The translations under genes and the position numbers were made by a program. From contig JAJYTE010000013.1 of the NCBI GenBank assembly GCA_021793215.1, positions 1 through 57,476 of the forward strand: a DNA stretch of 57,476 bases. Direction: 5' to 3'. This DNA is from Bacillota bacterium. Its GTDB lineage: Bacteria; Bacillota; Sulfobacillia; JAJZYS01; JAJYTV01. Under the pieces are notes generated by a model. The model had not been told where the DNA came from. It saw only the letters and a list, made by a program, of their open reading frames with translations, and ran no database searches. This document shows positions 11,710-53,497 of this stretch, one piece after another. Each line of letters starts with the position of its first letter. Position 1 is the first letter of the stretch.

Positions 11710-12632
<923 letters not shown>

Positions 12633-40155: not shown

Positions 40156-40589
40156 AGGCGTGACCAACGGTACAAAGCTGTTCGTGATCCCGGGTTTAGG
40201 TACGGCGGTATGTACCCGCAGCGAGCATCAGGCAGGCGAGAGGTGCGGCAGGCGCAAGCCTGCCGCCGCTTCGTTTCCCGTGCCTAGCCCAACTTGCCTG
40301 CCACTCGCTGGAGCGGGACATCCAACGTATCTGTCGTGCGGCTGACTCTCGGTCACGGGGTTCCTTGGCAAACCGGCAGTTCTTGATCTGCTCCAGGAAC
40401 CGTTGCCGGTCTTCTCTGGAAGATTGGTCCTGCGGCCGTACATCCGACCGACGGCTCTCGTGCTGCCCGGAATGAGCACGCTACAGCGCGTCGCTGATCT
40501 ACGCATCCACTGGACGGATCCCGCATGTATAAATAACCAGTGGATACCGTCTCGGTTACGAAGCCACCGAGCTGGCGTAAGGGTCTCGC
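40156..40589. other. Gene-poor region downstream of the TnpB/Cas12-like gene, with two stem-loops
   Basis: No ORF is supported here. Two strong inverted repeats are present: GCGGCAGGC-GCAA-GCCTGCCGC at 40245-40266 (9-bp stem, tetraloop) and ATCCACTGG ... CCAGTGGAT at 40505-40513 / 40537-40545 (9-bp stem, 23-nt loop). The second lies about 45-85 nt beyond the stop codon of the minus-strand TnpB/Cas12-like gene, where TnpB-family guide RNAs are usually encoded. The first may be a terminator. A functional RNA is possible but not shown. Confidence 0.45.
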
Positions 40590-42338
40590 TCAGTCGTTCG
40601 CCGCAGCCCAGCGAACCAGATGGCGGCAAGTGTTCAGTTCCGGGTCAAAGAGCTGGCTGCACGTTGGACAGCGCACGACCTCCAGGCCGCCTCCGCCGTG
40701 AGTGTCGTAGCAGGCAAAGTGCTTCCACACTTGCAGACCTCGCGGTGTCACGTACACATGTCGGTCCAATTTGGCGAATGCCTGCTCCAGGGCACGCTCT
40801 AGGGTGAACACAGCTGCAATCTGCGTCAGCCTTCTCGTGGACATCCGCAAGAAATCGTCCCGGATCTCAGGTACCGGACGCTCTCTAAGCCTGTGCAAAA
40901 CCGGCTTGTGGATCACGATGCGGCCATAGAGGCCGGCGTTGCGGTGTGCAAATGTTCGGTATAGATCTACGCGGAATCCGATGCACTTCTCGCGCAGATT
41001 CGCTTCCCACTCCAGCAGCCGCTTGTCCTTCCGCCGCCAGGCCTCCAGGCCTGAGAAGCCTGTCTCGTCGCCAGGGAAACGGTGCGAACGCCAGTGCTCA
41101 GCGACCGCTCCAAGCGTCTCTGGCGCGTCCTTCTGTCGGTCGTTCAACGCTTCGGCAAGCCAGGATGGGACGGGACCGCTATGCTCGCCGCACCATGCTT
41201 CGACCTCTTGCGCTGCTGCGCGATACTCCTTCGCACGGGTTGAACGCAATCGGTCGAGCGTGCTGAAACGTTCCAACAGCGGATTCGGCAATACGAGTTC
41301 CTCGTAAGAGCCGTCGGAACCCAGGCATACCGCAACTCGCAAGCCAGACGCCTTGGATTCCCACCCGAGGGCGATGGCCAGGGTCCGGGTGGGCGCAACG
41401 TCAGCCACCTGCGTGCAGTCGGTATGGACCGTGAGTGAGAGCGCGTAGACGAAGTTGGTTCCGACACGCCGCCGAAGGACCTGGGCAGCCTTGATCACAC
41501 CGTCTTCCGGCAGCGGGCGATGCATCACCATCGGCAGCTCCAGCCAGACCGGATCACGTCCCCTCGATGCGACGCGGATCCGCACACTGGTTCGCGAGCG
41601 CCTTCTCCGCGCACCTCGGGGGATGTGCTCCCACCCCGAAAAGTCCACCGGGCCAATCTGCAACATGCGGCTCCACTTCGAGTCTTGGCTGAAGAGGCGT
41701 AGCATCGTGCACGGAGCGTCTGCGTCCTTTGCGTCATGCTGCAGCTGTACAGCCCAGAAACCCGTCCCGTCGAAGGCCCGCTCGTGTAGTGCGCCGGGTC
41801 TCCCTGCCTTCGTCACGGACCGCTCCGCACGGCGTCTGGCGACTTCGTAGCGATCACGTGTCAGGAGCGAGTTCCCCCAGTAGAGCCCGCGCGCGGAGAA
41901 GTCGCCATAGACTACCCTTGCGGTCTCTCGCCGCCAAGCCTGGAGCGCTTCGATCTCCGTTCGGACATTGTCCCAGTGGGCGCCCTTGGCAGCGTAGAGT
42001 CGCTGCTGGAGGTGCCTGCGCTGTACCTCCATCACGGTTGCCTGCTCTCGCCACTCGCTAAGAACGGCCTCTCTATCGCGCCTCGCCTGCTCGATCCGCG
42101 TTCTTGCCGCGGCAATGTCGTCAAGTGTCCTCTCCAGTTCCAGAGCGATCTGCTCGACCGCCTCGACGGAGCGCCAGATCGCACGCTCGCGTTGCCGGTA
42201 TTCATGCTCGATCGCGACGAGCGCGTTCCAGTACTCCGTCTCCAGTGCGAGTTGCCGTTCGGCCTCGGCGGGGACCTCCACGGGCTGCCCGCAGCCGAAC
42301 CTATAGATCCGCGTCGCGCCGCCGTCTGTCGCATGCAC
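40590..42338 (-). CDS. TnpB/Cas12-like RuvC-fold protein, probably nuclease-dead
   Basis: A 582-residue protein. The first ~200 residues are coiled-coil-like and basic. The C-terminal half matches the RuvC core of TnpB and type V-U-like Cas12 proteins. At the RuvC-I position TLAIALGWESKASGLRVAV has Ala where the catalytic Asp is expected. At RuvC-II, YGRIVIHKPVLHRL has His where Glu is expected. At RuvC-III, CPTCSQLFDPELNTCRHL has Glu where the D-x-N-A-A Asp is expected. Only part of the zinc ribbon (CPTC plus one earlier Cys) remains. GTG 42338 follows AGGAGG at 9 nt. No CRISPR array or TnpA gene is adjacent. A guide-RNA-directed binder or repressor is inferred. The upstream fluoride riboswitch is unique in this context. 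Confidence 0.72.
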   Translation of the reverse strand: MHATDGGATRIYRFGCGQPVEVPAEAERQLALETEYWNALVAIEHEYRQRERAIWRSVEAVEQIALELERTLDDIAAARTRIEQARRDREAVLSEWREQATVMEVQRRHLQQRLYAAKGAHWDNVRTEIEALQAWRRETARVVYGDFSARGLYWGNSLLTRDRYEVARRRAERSVTKAGRPGALHERAFDGTGFWAVQLQHDAKDADAPCTMLRLFSQDSKWSRMLQIGPVDFSGWEHIPRGARRRRSRTSVRIRVASRGRDPVWLELPMVMHRPLPEDGVIKAAQVLRRRVGTNFVYALSLTVHTDCTQVADVAPTRTLAIALGWESKASGLRVAVCLGSDGSYEELVLPNPLLERFSTLDRLRSTRAKEYRAAAQEVEAWCGEHSGPVPSWLAEALNDRQKDAPETLGAVAEHWRSHRFPGDETGFSGLEAWRRKDKRLLEWEANLREKCIGFRVDLYRTFAHRNAGLYGRIVIHKPVLHRLRERPVPEIRDDFLRMSTRRLTQIAAVFTLERALEQAFAKLDRHVYVTPRGLQVWKHFACYDTHGGGGLEVVRCPTCSQLFDPELNTCRHLVRWAAAND

Positions 42339-42348
42339 AGCTACGTAC

Positions 42349-42391
42349 CTCCTGCTTCACGAGTCGGAACATCAGTCGATGTAAGCAGGAG
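42349..42391 (-). promoter_or_regulatory. RBS-sequestering stem of riboswitch A
   Basis: The minus-strand ribosome-binding region AAGCAGGAG(G) (plus 42349-42357) is perfectly complementary over 9 bp to CTCCTGCTT (plus 42383-42391), which is the 3' strand of the aptamer's P1 stem plus the following bases. Aptamer folding and RBS masking are mutually exclusive, so fluoride binding should switch translation ON. Confidence 0.7.
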
Positions 42392-42432
42392 TCGTCAGCC
42401 GTGCGGCGGTTAAAGGCGGAACTCCATCGCCT
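42385..42432 (-). ncRNA. Fluoride riboswitch (crcB motif), copy A
   Basis: On the minus strand the RNA reads GGCGATGGAGTTCCGCC, then AACCGCC, CGGCTGACGACTCCT, which follows the crcB consensus (GGcGAUGG, AACCGCC pseudoknot strand, GGCU-AUG-CUCCU), with ACG in place of AUG. P1 pairs GGAGTT with GACTCC. It begins 17 nt after the stop codon of the hyfB-like gene and ends about 45 nt before the TnpB/Cas12-like start codon. No independent promoter was found, so read-through from the hydrogenase-like operon is possible. Ligand: fluoride, by family knowledge. Confidence 0.85.
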
Positions 42433-42448
42433 TGCGGAACTGCCGGAA

Positions 42449-44419
42449 TCACAGGAGACCTGAGAGCTTGAGCCAGACGATCCCCCCCATCAGCACGACC
42501 ATGATGTACCCGAGGTAGTGGCTGAGGTGCCCTGTCTGCATGCTCTGGATGGCTTGCGCGGCGCGCCGTGCAGCCTGAAGGAGCGGTCCGAACACGTTTA
42601 CGAGCAGCCGGTCGGCCGCATCGGTATGCACCTCGACGGCATCTTCGCCGACGGTACGCGTACTCCGGTGGCGAATCACCGGAGCGAACGCCAGCCGTAG
42701 CGGCTGGGCGATTCCGTCGGCCGTCCATCCGTAGGACGAGACGTACTCTTCACCGCCGTTCCAAGGGGCCGGCACCGCCGCCCGACGTGGATTCGGGCGC
42801 AGCCAAAGCCACCGCAGCAGTGCGACAATCCCCATGATCCCGCCGCCAAACCAGAGGAGATCCCAAGGGGACGTCGCCGTGAACCCGCCGTCGGGGAAGA
42901 GAATGACGCCCTGGGCTCCCGGAAGTCCGGTGAACACACGACCGCCCAAGGAATCCAGCAGTGCTGTTGTGCCCGGGTGCGTGAACGTCGGAGCGATGAG
43001 TCCGCTGGCGCCAAGCGCCCTCGGCGAGGCGGCGGCAACCCATGGCACGATCCAGGTCGCGCCGACGCCTGCGAGCCAAGCGATGAGCGCACCCAGCGCC
43101 ATGCCAAGCGTCTCCCCAGCGCGGGGAGGCCCCGCTGGGGCAGTGCGCCTGGGCCCTAGGAAGATGGCCGCGTACCAGCGCAGGATCGCCGTCGCCCCAC
43201 CAGCGGTGACGAGGGCCACAACCAGAATCACAACAAGGAGTGCGGGCCGCAGGCTTGTGGAGGCACCCATGAAGATGCTCTCCGCCGCCATCCATTCGGC
43301 CAAGTAGCCGCCCGTCGGCGGCATCGCCATGAGGGCTGCACCTGCGAGCAGTGTCAGTCCCGCGGCCAGCGGAGCGGCTCTGAAGAGGCCACCCAGGCGG
43401 TTCATCTCGCGCGTGTCCGTCACCCGTTCGATCCAGCCGGAAGCGAAGAAGGCCGTGAACTTCGCTCCCATGTGCATCAGGAGGAGCGTGTAGGTGCTGC
43501 TGAGCGCAAGGGCCGCTGCGGCAGATTGCCCTGCGTCTGCAAAGACGTAGGAAAGCCCGAGACTGGCGAATGCGAGCCCGATCCACTCCACGGTCGAGTA
43601 GGCCAGCACTCGCTTGTGGTCATTGTCTACGATCGCGTGGATGACGCCGAGCAGTGCTCCCAAGAGCCCCAGGACGACCATTCCCCACGCGACCTGCAGC
43701 GGCGGCGGCGCCCATGCGAGCCAGCGCACAAGTCCCACCATGGCCACTGTCGTCGTAACGCCCGAAAGTGCGGCCGCGGCTGCGCCAGGCGCCTCGGGCT
43801 CCGCGAGCGGCAGCCAGAGTTGAAACGGGAAGAGTCCGGCCTTCGATCCGAGCCCGAGGATGCCCAGTACGGCGATGATGTCGGTAACTCCCGGAGATCT
43901 CAGCCCAGCTGACAGCAGAAGGGCGCCAAGAAGCAGTGCCGCAGCGCCCGCCTCGCTCATCACGAGCATCGCCCACCCGGAAACCGCCGCACGCTGACTG
44001 TTTCCTTGCGAGACCACCATTCCGTAGACGGCCACGGCGAGCACACCCCATGCCACCACCATCGCGAGCGGAGACGAAGATTCAAGGAATGCCGCAACGG
44101 CCACCCCAAGCCATGCAAGCGATACCCATTGCCCCTTGCCGAACTCCTTCGCCGCAAACACGAGGCCCGTCGTGAGGAGGAGGCCCTCGCCGAGGAGCCC
44201 CCAGAACCCGGCCCACGGCGTGAGGGCATAGGTCAGGGAGCCCGCCATCGTATCCACGGCCAACGCCGAGGTGTTGCCGGCGAGCGCGAGAATCAGCTGG
44301 ATACACAGGACGACGATCGTCGCAGACGCGAACACGGGCACGGATGCGCGGCGCCCACTCCACGCAACGAAACTCGCGATGGCCGCAAGTGCAAGCGCTA
44401 CGAGAAATAGGACCATCAT
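42449..44419 (-). CDS. HyfB/HycC-like antiporter-type membrane subunit
   Basis: A 656-residue NuoL/M/N-like subunit of a group-4 hydrogenase-type complex, with about 14 helices. Key lysine segments for ion translocation are GLGSKAGLFPFQLWLP and DNDHKRVLAYSTVEWIGL. The C-terminal cytosolic part contains WNGGEEYVSSYGWTADG and the closing helix region YLGYIMVVLMGGIVWLKLSG, which are typical of HyfB/HycC. ATG 44419 overlaps the HyfI-like stop (ATGA). It ends the six-gene operon. It should move protons or sodium ions, but whether it is driven by redox chemistry is unclear because the large subunit lacks its NiFe site. Confidence 0.88.
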   Translation of the reverse strand: MMVLFLVALALAAIASFVAWSGRRASVPVFASATIVVLCIQLILALAGNTSALAVDTMAGSLTYALTPWAGFWGLLGEGLLLTTGLVFAAKEFGKGQWVSLAWLGVAVAAFLESSSPLAMVVAWGVLAVAVYGMVVSQGNSQRAAVSGWAMLVMSEAGAAALLLGALLLSAGLRSPGVTDIIAVLGILGLGSKAGLFPFQLWLPLAEPEAPGAAAAALSGVTTTVAMVGLVRWLAWAPPPLQVAWGMVVLGLLGALLGVIHAIVDNDHKRVLAYSTVEWIGLAFASLGLSYVFADAGQSAAAALALSSTYTLLLMHMGAKFTAFFASGWIERVTDTREMNRLGGLFRAAPLAAGLTLLAGAALMAMPPTGGYLAEWMAAESIFMGASTSLRPALLVVILVVALVTAGGATAILRWYAAIFLGPRRTAPAGPPRAGETLGMALGALIAWLAGVGATWIVPWVAAASPRALGASGLIAPTFTHPGTTALLDSLGGRVFTGLPGAQGVILFPDGGFTATSPWDLLWFGGGIMGIVALLRWLWLRPNPRRAAVPAPWNGGEEYVSSYGWTADGIAQPLRLAFAPVIRHRSTRTVGEDAVEVHTDAADRLLVNVFGPLLQAARRAAQAIQSMQTGHLSHYLGYIMVVLMGGIVWLKLSGLL

Positions 44420-44937
44420 CCCACCTCACCCGCCGTGGCGCCGCGGCCGACGAGTGAGAGAAGACCGTCAAGCAGATCGTCCGGCGAGGGAGGACATCCA
44501 GGGACCCAGGCGTCCACCGGCACGATCTCTGCGAGGTTGCCCACAACGCCGGGGGCGCCGCGGAATACGCAGCCGTCGACGGCGCAGTCTCCAGTCGCGA
44601 CGACGAGCTTCGGGTTCGGCATCGCGTCGTAGGTGGCCCGGATCACAGGCACCATGGCGTCAGTAACGACTCCGGTGATCAGGAGAAGGTCTGCGTGTCG
44701 GGGCGAGGGGGTGAACGAAAAGCCGAAGCGGGAGAGGTCGTAGACTGGACTCCCAAGGAGGCCGATCTCCGATTCGCAGCCGTTGCAGGACCCCGCATCG
44801 AGGTGGCGGATCGCGAGTGATCGTGAGAAGAGCCGCGCGGGCACTCCTGTCTTCGCTGGCCGCGACCCTGCCCTACGCCGCAGCACGGAGGGACCCTTGG
44901 CAAGATTCACGATCCACCGGGGATAGAACACTGGCAT
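44416..44937 (-). CDS. HyfI/HycG-like [4Fe-4S] small subunit (NuoB-like)
   Basis: A 173-residue NuoB-type protein that binds one [4Fe-4S] cluster next to the large subunit. Cys ligands are in GSCNGCESEIGLL, ATGDCAVDGC and VPGCPPSPDD, so the cluster site seems intact even though the partner large subunit has lost its NiFe ligands. It is overlapped by the hyfB-like gene and preceded by the large-subunit gene with a 6-bp gap. It sits in the middle of the operon, as in hyf/hyc-type clusters. No ferredoxin-type HyfA/HyfH gene is present. Confidence 0.9.
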   Translation of the reverse strand: MPVFYPRWIVNLAKGPSVLRRRAGSRPAKTGVPARLFSRSLAIRHLDAGSCNGCESEIGLLGSPVYDLSRFGFSFTPSPRHADLLLITGVVTDAMVPVIRATYDAMPNPKLVVATGDCAVDGCVFRGAPGVVGNLAEIVPVDAWVPGCPPSPDDLLDGLLSLVGRGATAGEVG

Positions 44938-44943
44938 TCCCTC

Positions 44944-46290
44944 CTAGAGGTCGAGCGACGCGACGGCGAGGCTGAAGGACGCGTCGATGATCGGGAAATC
45001 CTGCAGGATGTTGTGATTGGCCACGGCGAGCGGCACCGCGACCCAGTTGATGCTTGACGCAGTCCTGATCTGGCACGTTTCAACGCGGCCGCCGCCCACG
45101 GCGACCCGATAGAAGAGGCGGCCGCGCGGCGACTCGACGAGGCCGTAACCTAGGCCATTGCCGAAGTCCAAGGGCGGTGGCGAGCTCGCCGCCCCGCACC
45201 CACCCGCCCTGCGCAGCATGGCGATCGACTGGGTGATCTCCTCGCAGCGCACGAAGTAGCGCCCGTACGCATCGCCCGTAGTCCAGCCGGCTGGACGGCG
45301 GCCGTAGCAGAGATCGGGGTACCAGGCGTAGGGGAGATCCCATCGCACGTCTTCGTTGCAGCCGGCCGACCGACCGACGACGCCGACGAGTTCGAGTGAT
45401 TTGCTGGGAATGCCGCCCGCCCCGTGCAAGCGGTCGAGGAAGGAGTTCGTGCGGTCGAGGGAACGCCGCACGGCCACGAACTGACGTTCGACTTCCTCAA
45501 CGAAGGACGGCAGCTCTCGGGAGGTGTCTCGAATGCCCCGTCGCCATCCTCCTGGGCTGACGACGCCGCGCAGGTAGCGATGTCCCGTCCACTCCTTGCC
45601 GAAGCGCAGAACGGTCTCGCGCAGGCGATAGAGGTCAGCGGCGGCGACGACTGTACCCGTTGCTGCCGCAAGCGACGCGAGGTCCCCAAGGTGACTGTGC
45701 AGGCGTTCGAGTTCGGCAAGTGCGCTCCGAAGAACGGAAGTGCTTTCACCGACCGCGAGACCCAGCGCATCCTCCACCGCCAGGCTGAAGGCAAGCGCGT
45801 GCGCGACCGTCGAGGTGCCGGTTACCCGCTCTGCGATCTCCAGTGCTGCGCCGACCTCAGCCCCCTGCATCAACCGGGCGACGCCACGGCGCTTGTAACC
45901 CCGCCGCAACGTGAGGGCGTGGATCTCGTCGCCGAGGACGTCCATCTCGTAACGGAGCGCCTCCGCGACATCGGCGCGCACCGGCCCGAGTGGCACGACG
46001 TGCATGCCCTCGCCGATGACTTCCCGCTCGGCAGCCGCAGGCTCTAAGGCTTCGCATCCGAAGTCCTGCTCCTCCACGAAGCGCAGGCTCGGGAAGCCCC
46101 GTTCGCTCGGTCGCGCGTGCGGCCCGGGGCCCACATCGATTTCGGTGATCTCTCCCTCGCCCTTGCGCCAAAGCACTACCCGCACGCTGCGGTGGTCCGG
46201 GAAGACGTGCAGGACCTGGTTCCCATCCTTGACAGCCCGCTGGCAGAGGGACAACAAAGAGACCTCTGTCAGTTCCTGCGTGTGATCCAC
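44944..46290 (-). CDS. HyfG/HycE-like large subunit without NiFe ligands (Ehr-like)
   Basis: A 448-residue fusion of a NuoC-like N-terminal domain and a NuoD/hydrogenase-large-subunit-like domain. In true NiFe hydrogenases the first Cys pair lies in ERxCGxC; here the site reads AERVTGTSTVAHALAF, both Cys replaced by Thr. The C-terminal DPCxxC pair is absent: the chain ends in SLAVASLDL at the place where ASLDPC is expected. The protein therefore cannot hold the NiFe centre and needs no maturation protease. It resembles energy-converting-hydrogenase-related (Ehr) complexes. GTG 46290 follows AAGGAGGG at 6 nt. Confidence 0.88.
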   Translation of the reverse strand: MDHTQELTEVSLLSLCQRAVKDGNQVLHVFPDHRSVRVVLWRKGEGEITEIDVGPGPHARPSERGFPSLRFVEEQDFGCEALEPAAAEREVIGEGMHVVPLGPVRADVAEALRYEMDVLGDEIHALTLRRGYKRRGVARLMQGAEVGAALEIAERVTGTSTVAHALAFSLAVEDALGLAVGESTSVLRSALAELERLHSHLGDLASLAAATGTVVAAADLYRLRETVLRFGKEWTGHRYLRGVVSPGGWRRGIRDTSRELPSFVEEVERQFVAVRRSLDRTNSFLDRLHGAGGIPSKSLELVGVVGRSAGCNEDVRWDLPYAWYPDLCYGRRPAGWTTGDAYGRYFVRCEEITQSIAMLRRAGGCGAASSPPPLDFGNGLGYGLVESPRGRLFYRVAVGGGRVETCQIRTASSINWVAVPLAVANHNILQDFPIIDASFSLAVASLDL

Positions 46291-46306
46291 GGTCGTCCCT
46301 CCTTGC

Positions 46307-47647
46307 CTAATGCGGAAGCGGCCAGTGGAGCAGCCACGGGACCGCAAAACCGGAGATGAGAAGCAGGGTCGACAAGACCACCGTCGGCACAGTTTCGAAC
46401 GCCGCCTCCGGAGTGGGGCGTATCCCGGTCGTGGGCTGGTACCAGAGGCGCGGTGCACGGTAGGCGATCGCGATGAATCCAAACGCCAGCAGGGCAATCA
46501 TCAGAATCGCGGGAACGGCTGTGGCGCGGCTCGCGAGTCCGCCCATCGCGACAAGCCATTCGCTGAAGAATGGCCCAAGCGGGGGGACTCCCGCGAGCGC
46601 AGCGAGCCCGAGCAGGAGGCCGCCGCTCCCCCAAGGCATCCCTTCGTGCAACCTGCCGATCTTGTCCCCGTCGACCGTGCCGTATCTGGTCTGGATCGCC
46701 CCGCTGACGAAGAAGCACTGGCTCTTTGCAAGTCCATGGGTGATCACGTGCAGCAGTGCGCCCAGAAGGCCGATGCCGCCGAATCCCATTCCGAGCGCGA
46801 TGATCCCCATGTGTTCTACCGAGGAGTAGGCCAGCAGCCTCTTGAGGTTGCGCTGGCCCGCCATCGCCCCGACGCCGACGAGCAGAGACAGGAGCCCTAA
46901 AGCGATCAGCAGATCGTTCGGCCAGGCGGCGCCGTGAGTCAGGGTCCTCACCTTGTCCAGCCCGTCGTGCAGCACCCAGAGGATGCCGGCGAGTTCCGCA
47001 CCGGAAAGCAGGGCGGAAACGGGCGCCGGCGCCTGCGCGTGGGCGTCTGGAAGCCATGTGTGAAGGGGCACGAGTCCCGCTTTGGCACCGAATCCAACCA
47101 GCAGCAGGACCGCGCCGGCGGCCACTGTTGCAGGACCGCCTCCGATCAGGACTACGCCGGCAAGGGCGATGAGTCCGCCCATCCCTGCGAGCATGAGATA
47201 CTTCCATGCCGCCTCGAATGGGTGGGCGCCCGGCTTCAGTCCGACGAGCGCCACAGAGCTTAGCGTCGTCGCCTCGACGGCAACCCAGAGGGCAAGCAGC
47301 GACCAGTGCTCACCGAGCGCGAAGAGACTGGCCGTGAATACGCCGAGCAGCAGGAAGTAGGAAGACTGCAGCCTTTTGGGCCACGCATCCTCGATCCCGC
47401 CGGCCAGGTAGCTCGGCGAGGCGAAGAACGCGACTGCTCCAAGAACCGCAACGAGCGCCTGGTAGGCATCGCCCCAGTCGCGGGTCGAGTATGCCGCCCA
47501 GGCGAAGGCGACTGCCAAAAGAGCAAGCAGGATGGACCCGATGTTGCCTCCGGACCTCTGTTGCCAAGCGGCGAACAGTCCCAGGACGAGTGCGAGCACG
47601 ACCCCAATGAGCCCGAGCTGATGAGTGATGGGTAGCATGCCGGCCAT
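46307..47647 (-). CDS. HyfF-like antiporter-type membrane subunit (NuoL/MrpD-like)
   Basis: About 446 residues with roughly 13-14 helices, of the NuoM/N and MrpD type. GAKAGLVPLHTWLPDAHAQA holds the conserved Lys and the WLPDAH signature; GQRNLKRLLAYSSVEHMGII holds the second Lys; LLHVITHGLAKSQCFFVSGA holds a further Lys near helix XII. It is the second ion-translocating subunit of the complex. ATG 47647 overlaps the HyfE-like stop (TAATG); ATG 47638 is a second start. The frame is open further upstream, but a start there would run far into the hyfE-like gene. Confidence 0.88.
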   Translation of the reverse strand: MAGMLPITHQLGLIGVVLALVLGLFAAWQQRSGGNIGSILLALLAVAFAWAAYSTRDWGDAYQALVAVLGAVAFFASPSYLAGGIEDAWPKRLQSSYFLLLGVFTASLFALGEHWSLLALWVAVEATTLSSVALVGLKPGAHPFEAAWKYLMLAGMGGLIALAGVVLIGGGPATVAAGAVLLLVGFGAKAGLVPLHTWLPDAHAQAPAPVSALLSGAELAGILWVLHDGLDKVRTLTHGAAWPNDLLIALGLLSLLVGVGAMAGQRNLKRLLAYSSVEHMGIIALGMGFGGIGLLGALLHVITHGLAKSQCFFVSGAIQTRYGTVDGDKIGRLHEGMPWGSGGLLLGLAALAGVPPLGPFFSEWLVAMGGLASRATAVPAILMIALLAFGFIAIAYRAPRLWYQPTTGIRPTPEAAFETVPTVVLSTLLLISGFAVPWLLHWPLPH

Positions 47648-48240
47648 TACCCCCTGAGGTGCGTTAGGTGGTCCGCCGTCGGAGGCCCAGAGAACTCCGA
47701 CGTTCCTCGGCGCTGGAGCCATGCGAGCAGGGCTCCAAGAATCAGAACTTCCACAACAGCAAGTGCCTCGGGCAATCCGGGGACGGACGGATACTGCAGC
47801 ATGAGCAGACTCACCCCGAGTTCGGCTCCGACCAGAAGGAGCGCATGTACCCAGATGTCCCGTCGCATCATCGCGAGCCAGAGTGCGGTGCTCAGCACGC
47901 CAACGGCCAGGCCTGAACTACCGAGGGTCCACCAGGAAAGAGTGAGCGCCAGCACCGATCCGAGCACCAGAGACGGTGTCCCGCGCGTCGCCATGCCGTA
48001 CTCGGCGTGCATCCGGCGCGCAAGCAGCGCTGGTACAGCGAACACCTTCACGACCAGCCACAGGGCCGCGAGGACGAGCCAAGCGGAATCCAACCGTCCG
48101 ACGTAGACTGCGGCCGCGACCGTTGCGAGGGCGGCGATGCGATACCACCCCACCGCGCTCTGACTTCTGCGAGCGATCGCCAGAAGGACTAGGGAGAGCC
48201 ATACGGTTAGGGCAACGACTGCAAGACTGCCGTCTGTCAC
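47647..48240 (-). CDS. HyfE-like membrane subunit (NuoK-related)
   Basis: A 197-residue hydrophobic protein with five or six helices, in the position and with the size of HyfE. LVVKVFAVPALLARRMHAEY and LPEALAVVEVLILGALLAWL agree with the family. HyfE is NuoK-like and contributes to the membrane arm of group-4 complexes. GTG 48240 follows GAGGAGG at 7 nt. Stop TAA overlaps the following HyfF-like ATG. Placement between the NuoH-like and NuoL-like genes supports the call. Confidence 0.78.
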   Translation of the reverse strand: MTDGSLAVVALTVWLSLVLLAIARRSQSAVGWYRIAALATVAAAVYVGRLDSAWLVLAALWLVVKVFAVPALLARRMHAEYGMATRGTPSLVLGSVLALTLSWWTLGSSGLAVGVLSTALWLAMMRRDIWVHALLLVGAELGVSLLMLQYPSVPGLPEALAVVEVLILGALLAWLQRRGTSEFSGPPTADHLTHLRG

Positions 48241-48252
48241 AAGCGTTCCTCC

Positions 48253-49185
48253 TCAAGAGATGGCGACGGCCAGTGCAGCCAGCGCCGCAATAGCGACGGA
48301 GACAGTGAGGTACTCGGAAATGCGAAGCAAGCGGAGCTTGGCGAAGGAAAACTCCACGAGCACCACCAACAGTCCGACAATGATCAGCTTCGCTGCCGTC
48401 GCAAGAGTCGCCAATGCGATCAGGGCGGGCGCGAGCGAAGCCGCGAGGCCCCAGGGTGTAGCGAGGACGTTGACCAGGATGACCCCAAGCACTGCGAACT
48501 TCATCCAGCCGCCCCACTCGTAGAGGGCGAGATCAGTACCGCTTGCCTCAAACGTTCTGTTGGGATCGATCAACGAAAGTTCCTGGCTGGAATCTGGGTT
48601 GTCGACGGGCAGTCGGCCAGCTTCCGCCAACACCAGCAGGAACCATGCAACGATGATCAAGCCGTGGCTGGGCGTAAGCAGGGCGGGTCCGCCGAACACC
48701 TGGTTCACGACAAACGGGATCGTCGCCCTGCCAACCGCAGCGGCGGTGAAGAGTGCTGCCAAGGTAAGGGGCTCGGCCAGGGTGCCGATGAAGCGGACGC
48801 GGCTGACCGCGATCGACGAGTAAGGACTACCCGCATCCGCGGATGCCAACAGCAGCACGAGTCCTGCACCGCCAAGGATCATCCCGCCTCCCAGCATGTC
48901 TGCCATGAACGCCAACGGCAGTGGGAATGTCGTCAGCACCGGGATCAGGAGCGCGACGATCAACGGTGCGGAGAAGTAGACGACGGGAGCGATCGAGCGG
49001 ATCGCGGTCGTCTCGGTGTTCCAGACCGTTTCTTTATGGAACCACTTGTAAAGATTTCTGTATGGCTGCCATATCGGGGGCCCGATTCGTCGCATACCGC
49101 GCGCCTTTAAGCGGTCCATGATGCCTTTGAGAAGAGGAGCGAAGAGAAGCACGAATAGGACCTGGAGGATCTGTGCAATTAACAC
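48253..49185 (-). CDS. HyfC/HycD-like membrane subunit (NuoH-like)
   Basis: First gene of the operon; 310 residues, about eight helices. GPPIWQPYRNLYKWFHKETV (the cytoplasmic loop near the quinone/cluster site) and VLAEAGRLPVDNPDSSQELS (with the conserved Glu and PVDNP) are typical of the NuoH/HyfC/EchB group. GTG 49185 follows AAGGGGG at 6 nt. A fluoride riboswitch and a strong promoter lie directly upstream, so expression is expected to rise with intracellular fluoride. This subunit couples the peripheral arm to the antiporter-like subunits. Confidence 0.9.
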   Translation of the reverse strand: MLIAQILQVLFVLLFAPLLKGIMDRLKARGMRRIGPPIWQPYRNLYKWFHKETVWNTETTAIRSIAPVVYFSAPLIVALLIPVLTTFPLPLAFMADMLGGGMILGGAGLVLLLASADAGSPYSSIAVSRVRFIGTLAEPLTLAALFTAAAVGRATIPFVVNQVFGGPALLTPSHGLIIVAWFLLVLAEAGRLPVDNPDSSQELSLIDPNRTFEASGTDLALYEWGGWMKFAVLGVILVNVLATPWGLAASLAPALIALATLATAAKLIIVGLLVVLVEFSFAKLRLLRISEYLTVSVAIAALAALAVAIS

Positions 49186-49190
49186 AAAAG

Positions 49191-49236
49191 GCCCCCTTCA
49201 CAGGGGCATAGAAATACCCCTGCCGAATTCGACAGG
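49191..49236 (-). promoter_or_regulatory. Expression platform of riboswitch B
   Basis: Three hairpins compete. (1) GCCCCT-GTGA-AGGGGGC (plus 49191-49207) masks the RBS AAGGGGG and is followed by CCTTTTG, so it could also terminate. (2) A 9-bp stem at 49201-49222 (minus CAGGGGTAT / ATGCCCCTG) frees that RBS. (3) CCTGTC-GAATTC-GGCAGG (49219-49236) joins the aptamer's 3' strand to the base of hairpin 2. Ligand-bound aptamer should favour hairpin 2 and thus ON. Confidence 0.65.
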
Positions 49237-49290
49237 AGTCATTAGCCGTGGTTGGCGGTTTGGGGTTTCCCAGGCGGATCTCCATCGCCT
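49231..49290 (-). ncRNA. Fluoride riboswitch (crcB motif), copy B
   Basis: On the minus strand the RNA begins GGCGATGGAGATCCGCCT, has a variable hairpin GGGAAACCC, then AACCGCC and CGGCTAATGACTCCT, an excellent fit to the fluoride-aptamer consensus. It starts within a few nucleotides of the transcription start predicted from the upstream promoter and ends about 46 nt before the HyfC-like start codon. From the literature I recall crcB motifs being reported in front of formate-hydrogenlyase-type genes; this is a family-level memory, not a check made here. Confidence 0.92.
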
Positions 49291-49298
49291 TGGGTTGA

Positions 49299-53304: not shown

Positions 53305-53447
53305 TCCTTCTGCCTGCCGGCCCTTTTCCCCCAGAGATCGCTCCCTGGCTTTGTGAGGCCTTTGACGGTCCAGGCAGACCGGGGGTCACCCGCCGATGAT
53401 TCCGAGATCCCCCACCTCGTCCACTCGCGGGCGCGAGTGCTGGCGCT
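53305..53447 (-). ncRNA. glmS ribozyme-riboswitch
   Basis: On the minus strand the leader contains AGCGCCAGCACT (cleavage expected between A and G), a GC helix, AGTGGACGAGG, TCATCGGCGGGTGACC, GGTCTGCCT and later GGCAGGCAGAAGG. These are the conserved core, pseudoknot and P3/P4-side segments of glmS ribozymes in the right order and spacing. It self-cleaves with glucosamine-6-phosphate as cofactor, lowering glmS expression. The 3' limit is approximate. Confidence 0.93.
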
Positions 53448-53497
53448 TAGTGGTTGCCGCTTCCCTATGCTGTTGCGGGACCCTGCCCGTTGGCGCA

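Follow-up and report, generated by a model that had tools for sequence, protein, structure and literature searches.

What would a fluoride riboswitch be doing directly upstream of a gene for an RNA-guided protein? The question is raised by a 57,476-nucleotide (nt) stretch of a Bacillota genome (GenBank assembly GCA_021793215.1, contig JAJYTE010000013.1, positions 1 to 57,476; hereafter the window), in which an aptamer of the fluoride (crcB) riboswitch family precedes a gene that the first-pass annotation had called TnpB/Cas12-like. That description holds and is sharpened by a phmmer comparison with the Protein Data Bank (PDB), which identifies the product as a homologue of Cas12m, an effector of type V-M CRISPR (clustered regularly interspaced short palindromic repeats) systems. 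We consider it probable that the locus encodes an exapted, fluoride-induced, nuclease-dead Cas12m that works with one dedicated guide as an RNA-guided transcriptional silencer. The evidence, read directly from the DNA of the window and its relatives, consists of the aptamer, its pairing with the Shine-Dalgarno (SD) sequence, the Cas12m homology, the loss of RuvC residues, a solo guide RNA scaffold, and the conservation of guide and arrangement.

The riboswitch and the cas12m gene

The elements on which the argument depends are the following:

42379..42440, minus strand: fluoride riboswitch aptamer (RF01734), the second of its operon; cmscan, full length, 55.5 bits
42383..42391, minus strand: anti-SD strand CUCCUGCUU, overlapping the pseudoknot 3' strand ACUCC; from sequence and fold
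42349..42357, minus strand: partner strand AAGCAGGAG with the SD sequence (AGGAGG, 42348-42353); from sequence
40590..42338, minus strand: Cas12m homologue, 582 aa, GTG start; from phmmer to PDB Cas12m chains and alignments
40549..40576, minus strand: solo Cas12m CRISPR RNA (crRNA) scaffold GCC-AG-CTCGGT-GGC-TTCGTA-ACCGAG-AC, with stem GCC:GGC and pseudoknot CTCGGT:ACCGAG; from copy count and pair counts
40536..40548, minus strand: conserved 13-nt guide GGTATCCACTGGT, which reads GGCATCCACTGGT in two relatives; its 3' end is exactly where conservation stops

The aptamer is well above the Rfam gathering cut-off of 34 (window-wide E 1e-12), starts 8 nt past the stop codon of a HyfB-like gene and precedes the cas12m open reading frame, whose SD sequence sits 9 nt before the start codon. 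A separate crcB-motif aptamer between the hyfB-like stop and this gene had been proposed at first pass; its location was right, and it reaches 42440 rather than ending at 42432.

A single-sequence search of genome contigs gave no match; an alignment-based search identified the relatives as Bacillota metagenome-assembled genomes. Five genomes of this family (f1) carry cas12m: G000, which is the genome of the window, G001, G003, G004 and G008. The riboswitch-cas12m pair is kept in all five, as the idea of a regulatory link had demanded of the relatives, with aptamer scores of 60-64 bits in the other four, and cas12m, aptamer and anti-SD strand persist at 63-76% protein identity. G005, an f1 genome without cas12m, has no aptamer after hyfB.

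In the aptamer, the loop GGAGU pairs with ACUCC to form the pseudoknot, and this 3' strand runs on into CUCCUGCUU (42391-42383), which is exactly complementary over 9 bp to AAGCAGGAG (42357-42349). The 9-bp match to the ribosome binding site described at first pass is therefore exact, but it is formed by the pseudoknot 3' strand and not by that of P1. The aptamer core, the GGAGU:ACUCC pseudoknot and GCAGGAGG are invariant in the five genomes, the spacer hairpin between the core and GCAGGAGG differs in sequence among them, and the contiguous anti-SD pairing spans 7-9 bp. Since complementarity between ACUCC and GGAGG is forced by the aptamer and SD consensus sequences, only the additional UGC(UU)/(AA)GCA pairs count as independent evidence. 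When the five leaders were folded with ViennaRNA, GGAGG had an unpaired probability of 0.17-0.22 in the free RNA, rising in four of them, from 0.17-0.20, to 0.59, 0.76, 0.93 and 0.92 once the pseudoknot strands were held in the aptamer. This modeling supports a leader that acts as an SD-sequestering translational switch in four of the five relatives, and we infer that fluoride turns it on.

The best PDB match of the 582-aa protein is 23vw (residues 13-577, E 4e-58), followed by others including 8pm4 and the Cas12m2 entries 8hhl and 8hio (E 4e-58 to 3e-15), and by sequence homology it is a full-length Cas12m (type V-M) homologue. No Pfam or NCBIfam model recognizes it, and an AlphaFold2 model from a 5-row alignment (predicted local distance difference test score 51) was not used. 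By alignment its RuvC catalytic positions are A323/H477/E567, a non-canonical triad that reads A/H/E in the window and G008 and A/Y/E in G004; array-bearing homologues (in G321 and a viral copy) retain D/E/D. H273-R274 of the WED domain, the His-Arg pair with which Cas12m2 recognizes C(-1) of its crRNA (PMC10442227), is invariant across the alignments. Since even characterized Cas12m proteins with D-E-D, H-D-D or N-D-D do not cut double-stranded DNA and silence via binding (PMC11013384), the window copy is expected from its sequence to be nuclease-dead and to bind DNA only. Taken with the conserved pair and the folding results, the Cas12m homology supports the earlier proposal of an RNA-guided-type protein under riboswitch control.

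A solo guide RNA behind cas12m

Directly past the cas12m stop codon come CGCCAGCTCGGTGGCTTCGTAACCGAGAC and then GGTATCCACTGGT, a solo guide RNA missed at first pass, as were the lost RuvC residues and the parallel arrangement in a distant genome (G128, below). The first of these shares the architecture described for the Cas12m2 crRNA, namely a short stem and a pseudoknot followed by A(-2) and C(-1) (PMC10442227). The scaffold is also found behind cas12m in G001, G008 and G004. Every f1 genome carrying it has one exact copy, and a genome search at up to 3 mismatches recovers no other. Across nine scaffolds and repeats, 93.8% of cells are paired in the proposed structure, compared with 22-44% when the structure is slid, and four pairs have changed on both sides in compensatory fashion. 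In G004 (L009), transposase-like sequence begins at 12005, directly after the scaffold and in the guide's place.

We found no CRISPR array near cas12m, as the locus contains no repeats and each f1 genome no more than one scaffold at up to 3 mismatches; the multi-repeat array that marks a type V-M locus is thus not seen in f1. True V-M arrays, with repeats that end in CTGAGAC and adopt the same fold, occupy the same position in G209 and G321 (same phylum) and in a viral contig, and G086 has three degenerate repeats. In G000, G008 and G001, conservation extends through the scaffold and the next 13 bases and then collapses. Across two genera the guide is preserved, whereas the sequence beyond it has diverged. 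This pattern speaks for a selected solo guide and not for a fossil array.

These features suggest how the locus could work. A single transcript would carry the hyf-like genes upstream, cas12m and, in the 3' untranslated region (UTR), one crRNA unit from which the guide would be processed. Without fluoride, the aptamer 3' strand would pair with the cas12m SD sequence and keep translation off; with fluoride, that strand would be locked in the pseudoknot and the ribosome site freed. Cas12m would then bind the scaffold behind its own gene, use the fixed guide of about 13 nt, and bind chromosomal DNA without cutting it, blocking transcription as known Cas12m proteins do.

Candidate target and competing explanations

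Combined with a TTN protospacer-adjacent motif (PAM), the guide matches perfectly at a single place in the window's genome, TTC GGTATCCACTGGTT, over 14/14 nt (G000:C73; L129:12748-12763). The orthologous site matches at 13/13 in G001, where guide and target both have C at position 3, and at 12/13 in G008. We estimate the probability of a 13-mer plus PAM match by chance at about 1%, allowing for an excess of 11-mer matches. The gene at this site, a candidate target by sequence, encodes a 195-aa membrane-type protein with no known family in Pfam or NCBIfam; an assignment to the YaaH/acetate transporters found no support. In two relatives this gene heads an fdhD-mobA-mobB cluster: Pfam places fdhD and mobA after it in G001, and in G008 the sequences that follow resemble, by eye, fdhD, mobA, mobB and moaA. 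Such a linkage to formate dehydrogenase and molybdenum cofactor functions suits a hyf (formate hydrogenlyase-type) operon. The operon and its promoter were also considered as targets, and the 5' region contains no TTN-plus-seed site in any relative. In the TnpB-like nuclease-dead repressors (TldRs), 6-nt seeds work and natural mismatches are tolerated (PMC13418256), which makes short matches plausible, yet such matches arise easily by chance.

Several observations weigh against a guide-directed silencer. The target match is short, the PAM reads TAC instead of TTN in G001 and G008, and in G008 one guide position is mismatched; furthermore, G006, which lacks cas12m, has the same orthologous site, indicating that the site is kept by coding constraint and was not shaped by the guide. 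In G000 and G001, a downstream inverted repeat (GYATCCACTGG ... CCAGTGGAYGC; window 40503-40547) could fold back on the guide. The G003 leader keeps a GGAGG unpaired probability of 0.27 with the aptamer locked, giving no predicted switch, and the cas12m gene of this genome is broken. Neither G004 nor G003 has the guide, which is absent or replaced there, and G001 cas12m (L011, G001:C265, 2507-3595, minus strand) has lost residues 298-516, the RuvC I-II region, in frame; despite this deletion it retains riboswitch, SD sequence, scaffold and guide, and the short protein may be either a shortened effector or a product of decay. The guide losses, the broken gene and the deletion show that the system decays easily, and the f1 cases are one lineage.

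The same events, together with the true arrays that occupy this position in relatives, would fit a type V-M immune system in decay, reduced to its last repeat and spacer, with a riboswitch that by chance drives the leftover gene. We regard this as unlikely, because the 13-nt guide persists across two genera next to a diverging flank, the scaffold pairing is kept, and gene, aptamer and anti-SD strand have been maintained at the protein divergence given above. In addition, a search of IMG/VR with 20-mers from the G000 and G001 guides gave no exact match.

That lack of a viral match for the two genomes also argues against a fluoride-gated defense, in which Cas12m would silence mobile DNA and be made under fluoride stress only. 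Although Cas12m can stop phages and plasmids by binding alone (PMC11013384), one fixed guide held in common across species provides no adaptive memory and there is no clear reason for tying defense to fluoride, which makes this explanation improbable. Slightly less probable still is a guide-independent structural or autoregulatory role, in which Cas12m would bind its own 3' UTR and tune the operon mRNA with DNA targeting irrelevant: the scaffold does lie within the mRNA of cas12m itself, the loss of RuvC is complete and G001 keeps scaffold and guide without residues 298-516, but the guide is conserved as well as the scaffold, and G128, a genome of another family, has, at a distance of 1.8 kb, a second, near-identical scaffold that carries another guide, which fits trans-acting guides.

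A second lineage, known systems and the operon

In G128 (32% identity), a Cas12m gene lies directly behind a hyf-like operon with no aptamer between them, and has GCCTGCTCAGCGGCTTCGTAGTTGAGAC plus its own guide behind it; the additional scaffold is 28 nt long. A second Cas12m gene of this genome closes a cluster whose first elements are a fluoride riboswitch and two MutS-domain genes. Genes of the mutS and hyf types are known under fluoride riboswitches (PMC2864571; for formate hydrogenlyase, PMC11139923). The association of Cas12m with fluoride regulons thus reaches beyond a single lineage, although the two G128 copies are sisters in the tree and the G128 hyf leader is off the contig. The best match of the first G128 guide (14/15) falls close to the beginning of a FliD-like gene, expected by chance at about 2% by our estimate, and no convincing target was found for the second. 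We give about even chances to the broader proposal that an ion riboswitch gates an exapted CRISPR effector with one guide, that fluoride triggers chromosomal silencing, perhaps of the fdhD-mobA-mobB-linked gene, and that Cas12m was recruited into fluoride regulons at least twice.

G128 (C67, C74, C122, C38, C224, C121) contains 16 fluoride riboswitch model matches, about half of them above the cut-off, an unusually large regulon. Between its two solo scaffolds lies a weak fluoride aptamer (L056, 1771-1835, plus strand, 30.5 bits) followed by a terminator-like hairpin. A RuvC-degenerate Cas12m homologue in G088:C122 (L058/L167) is sister to the f1 family in the tree, and no array or scaffold was found near it.

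Compared with Cas12m2 and GoCas12m (type V-M; PMC10442227, PMC11013384), the window system has a homologous protein, a stem and pseudoknot scaffold ending in AC, the His-Arg pair for C(-1) and an expected non-cutting RuvC, silencing by binding being known for the characterized proteins. In contrast to these, it has one solo repeat with a conserved guide in place of an array, a more degenerate RuvC (A/H/E versus H-D-D, N-D-D or D-E-D), and a location within a fluoride-riboswitch operon. With TldRs, the natural RNA-guided transcription factors known from TnpB (PMC13418256), it shares a dead RuvC, a dedicated guide behind the gene and linkage to non-mobile genes; chromosomal silencing would be expected here too, at a target that is a candidate, and short guides are sufficient. 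However, TldRs derive from transposon TnpB, whereas the closest matches of the window protein are Cas12m, its scaffold is a CRISPR repeat and it is riboswitch-gated. By our comparison the system would resemble TldR in its action and a Cas12m without an array in its descent. The aptamer is that of known RF01734 riboswitches (PMC2864571, PMC11139923), with their known hyf-like and mutS associations, but unlike those cases it is a second aptamer inside the operon and is predicted to act on the translation of an RNA-guided protein. In the paper collection searched, no natural connection between a fluoride riboswitch and a Cas12 or TnpB gene was found; papers with both terms were, by title and abstract, on other subjects. 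If our reading is true, the locus would show a new way for CRISPR immunity to give rise to gene regulation and would be a ligand-gated CRISPR interference circuit of natural origin, and fluoride riboswitches would gain a repressive arm, with resistance genes turned on while other genes are shut down by RNA guidance.

The remaining features concern the operon upstream:

49226..49298, minus strand: first fluoride riboswitch, heading the operon; cmscan 44.1 bits, above the curated cut-off
42449..49185, minus strand: Hyf/complex I-related operon with NuoH-, possibly HyfE-, HyfF-, NuoC/D-, NuoB- and HyfB-like genes; from Pfam/NCBIfam

The operon-heading riboswitch is present in relatives too, and the hyf-like operon and cas12m presumably share one transcript. 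The operon had been called hydrogenase-like, which its subunit homology bears out. The HyfG-like large subunit (44944-46497, minus strand), however, has ERVTGTSTVAH in place of the hydrogenase RxCGxC motif and no C-terminal CxxC; because it lacks these Ni-ligating cysteines, the operon is hydrogenase-related by sequence but probably does not itself encode a hydrogenase. Elsewhere in the window, a glmS ribozyme is located at 53308-53458 on the minus strand (69.9 bits).
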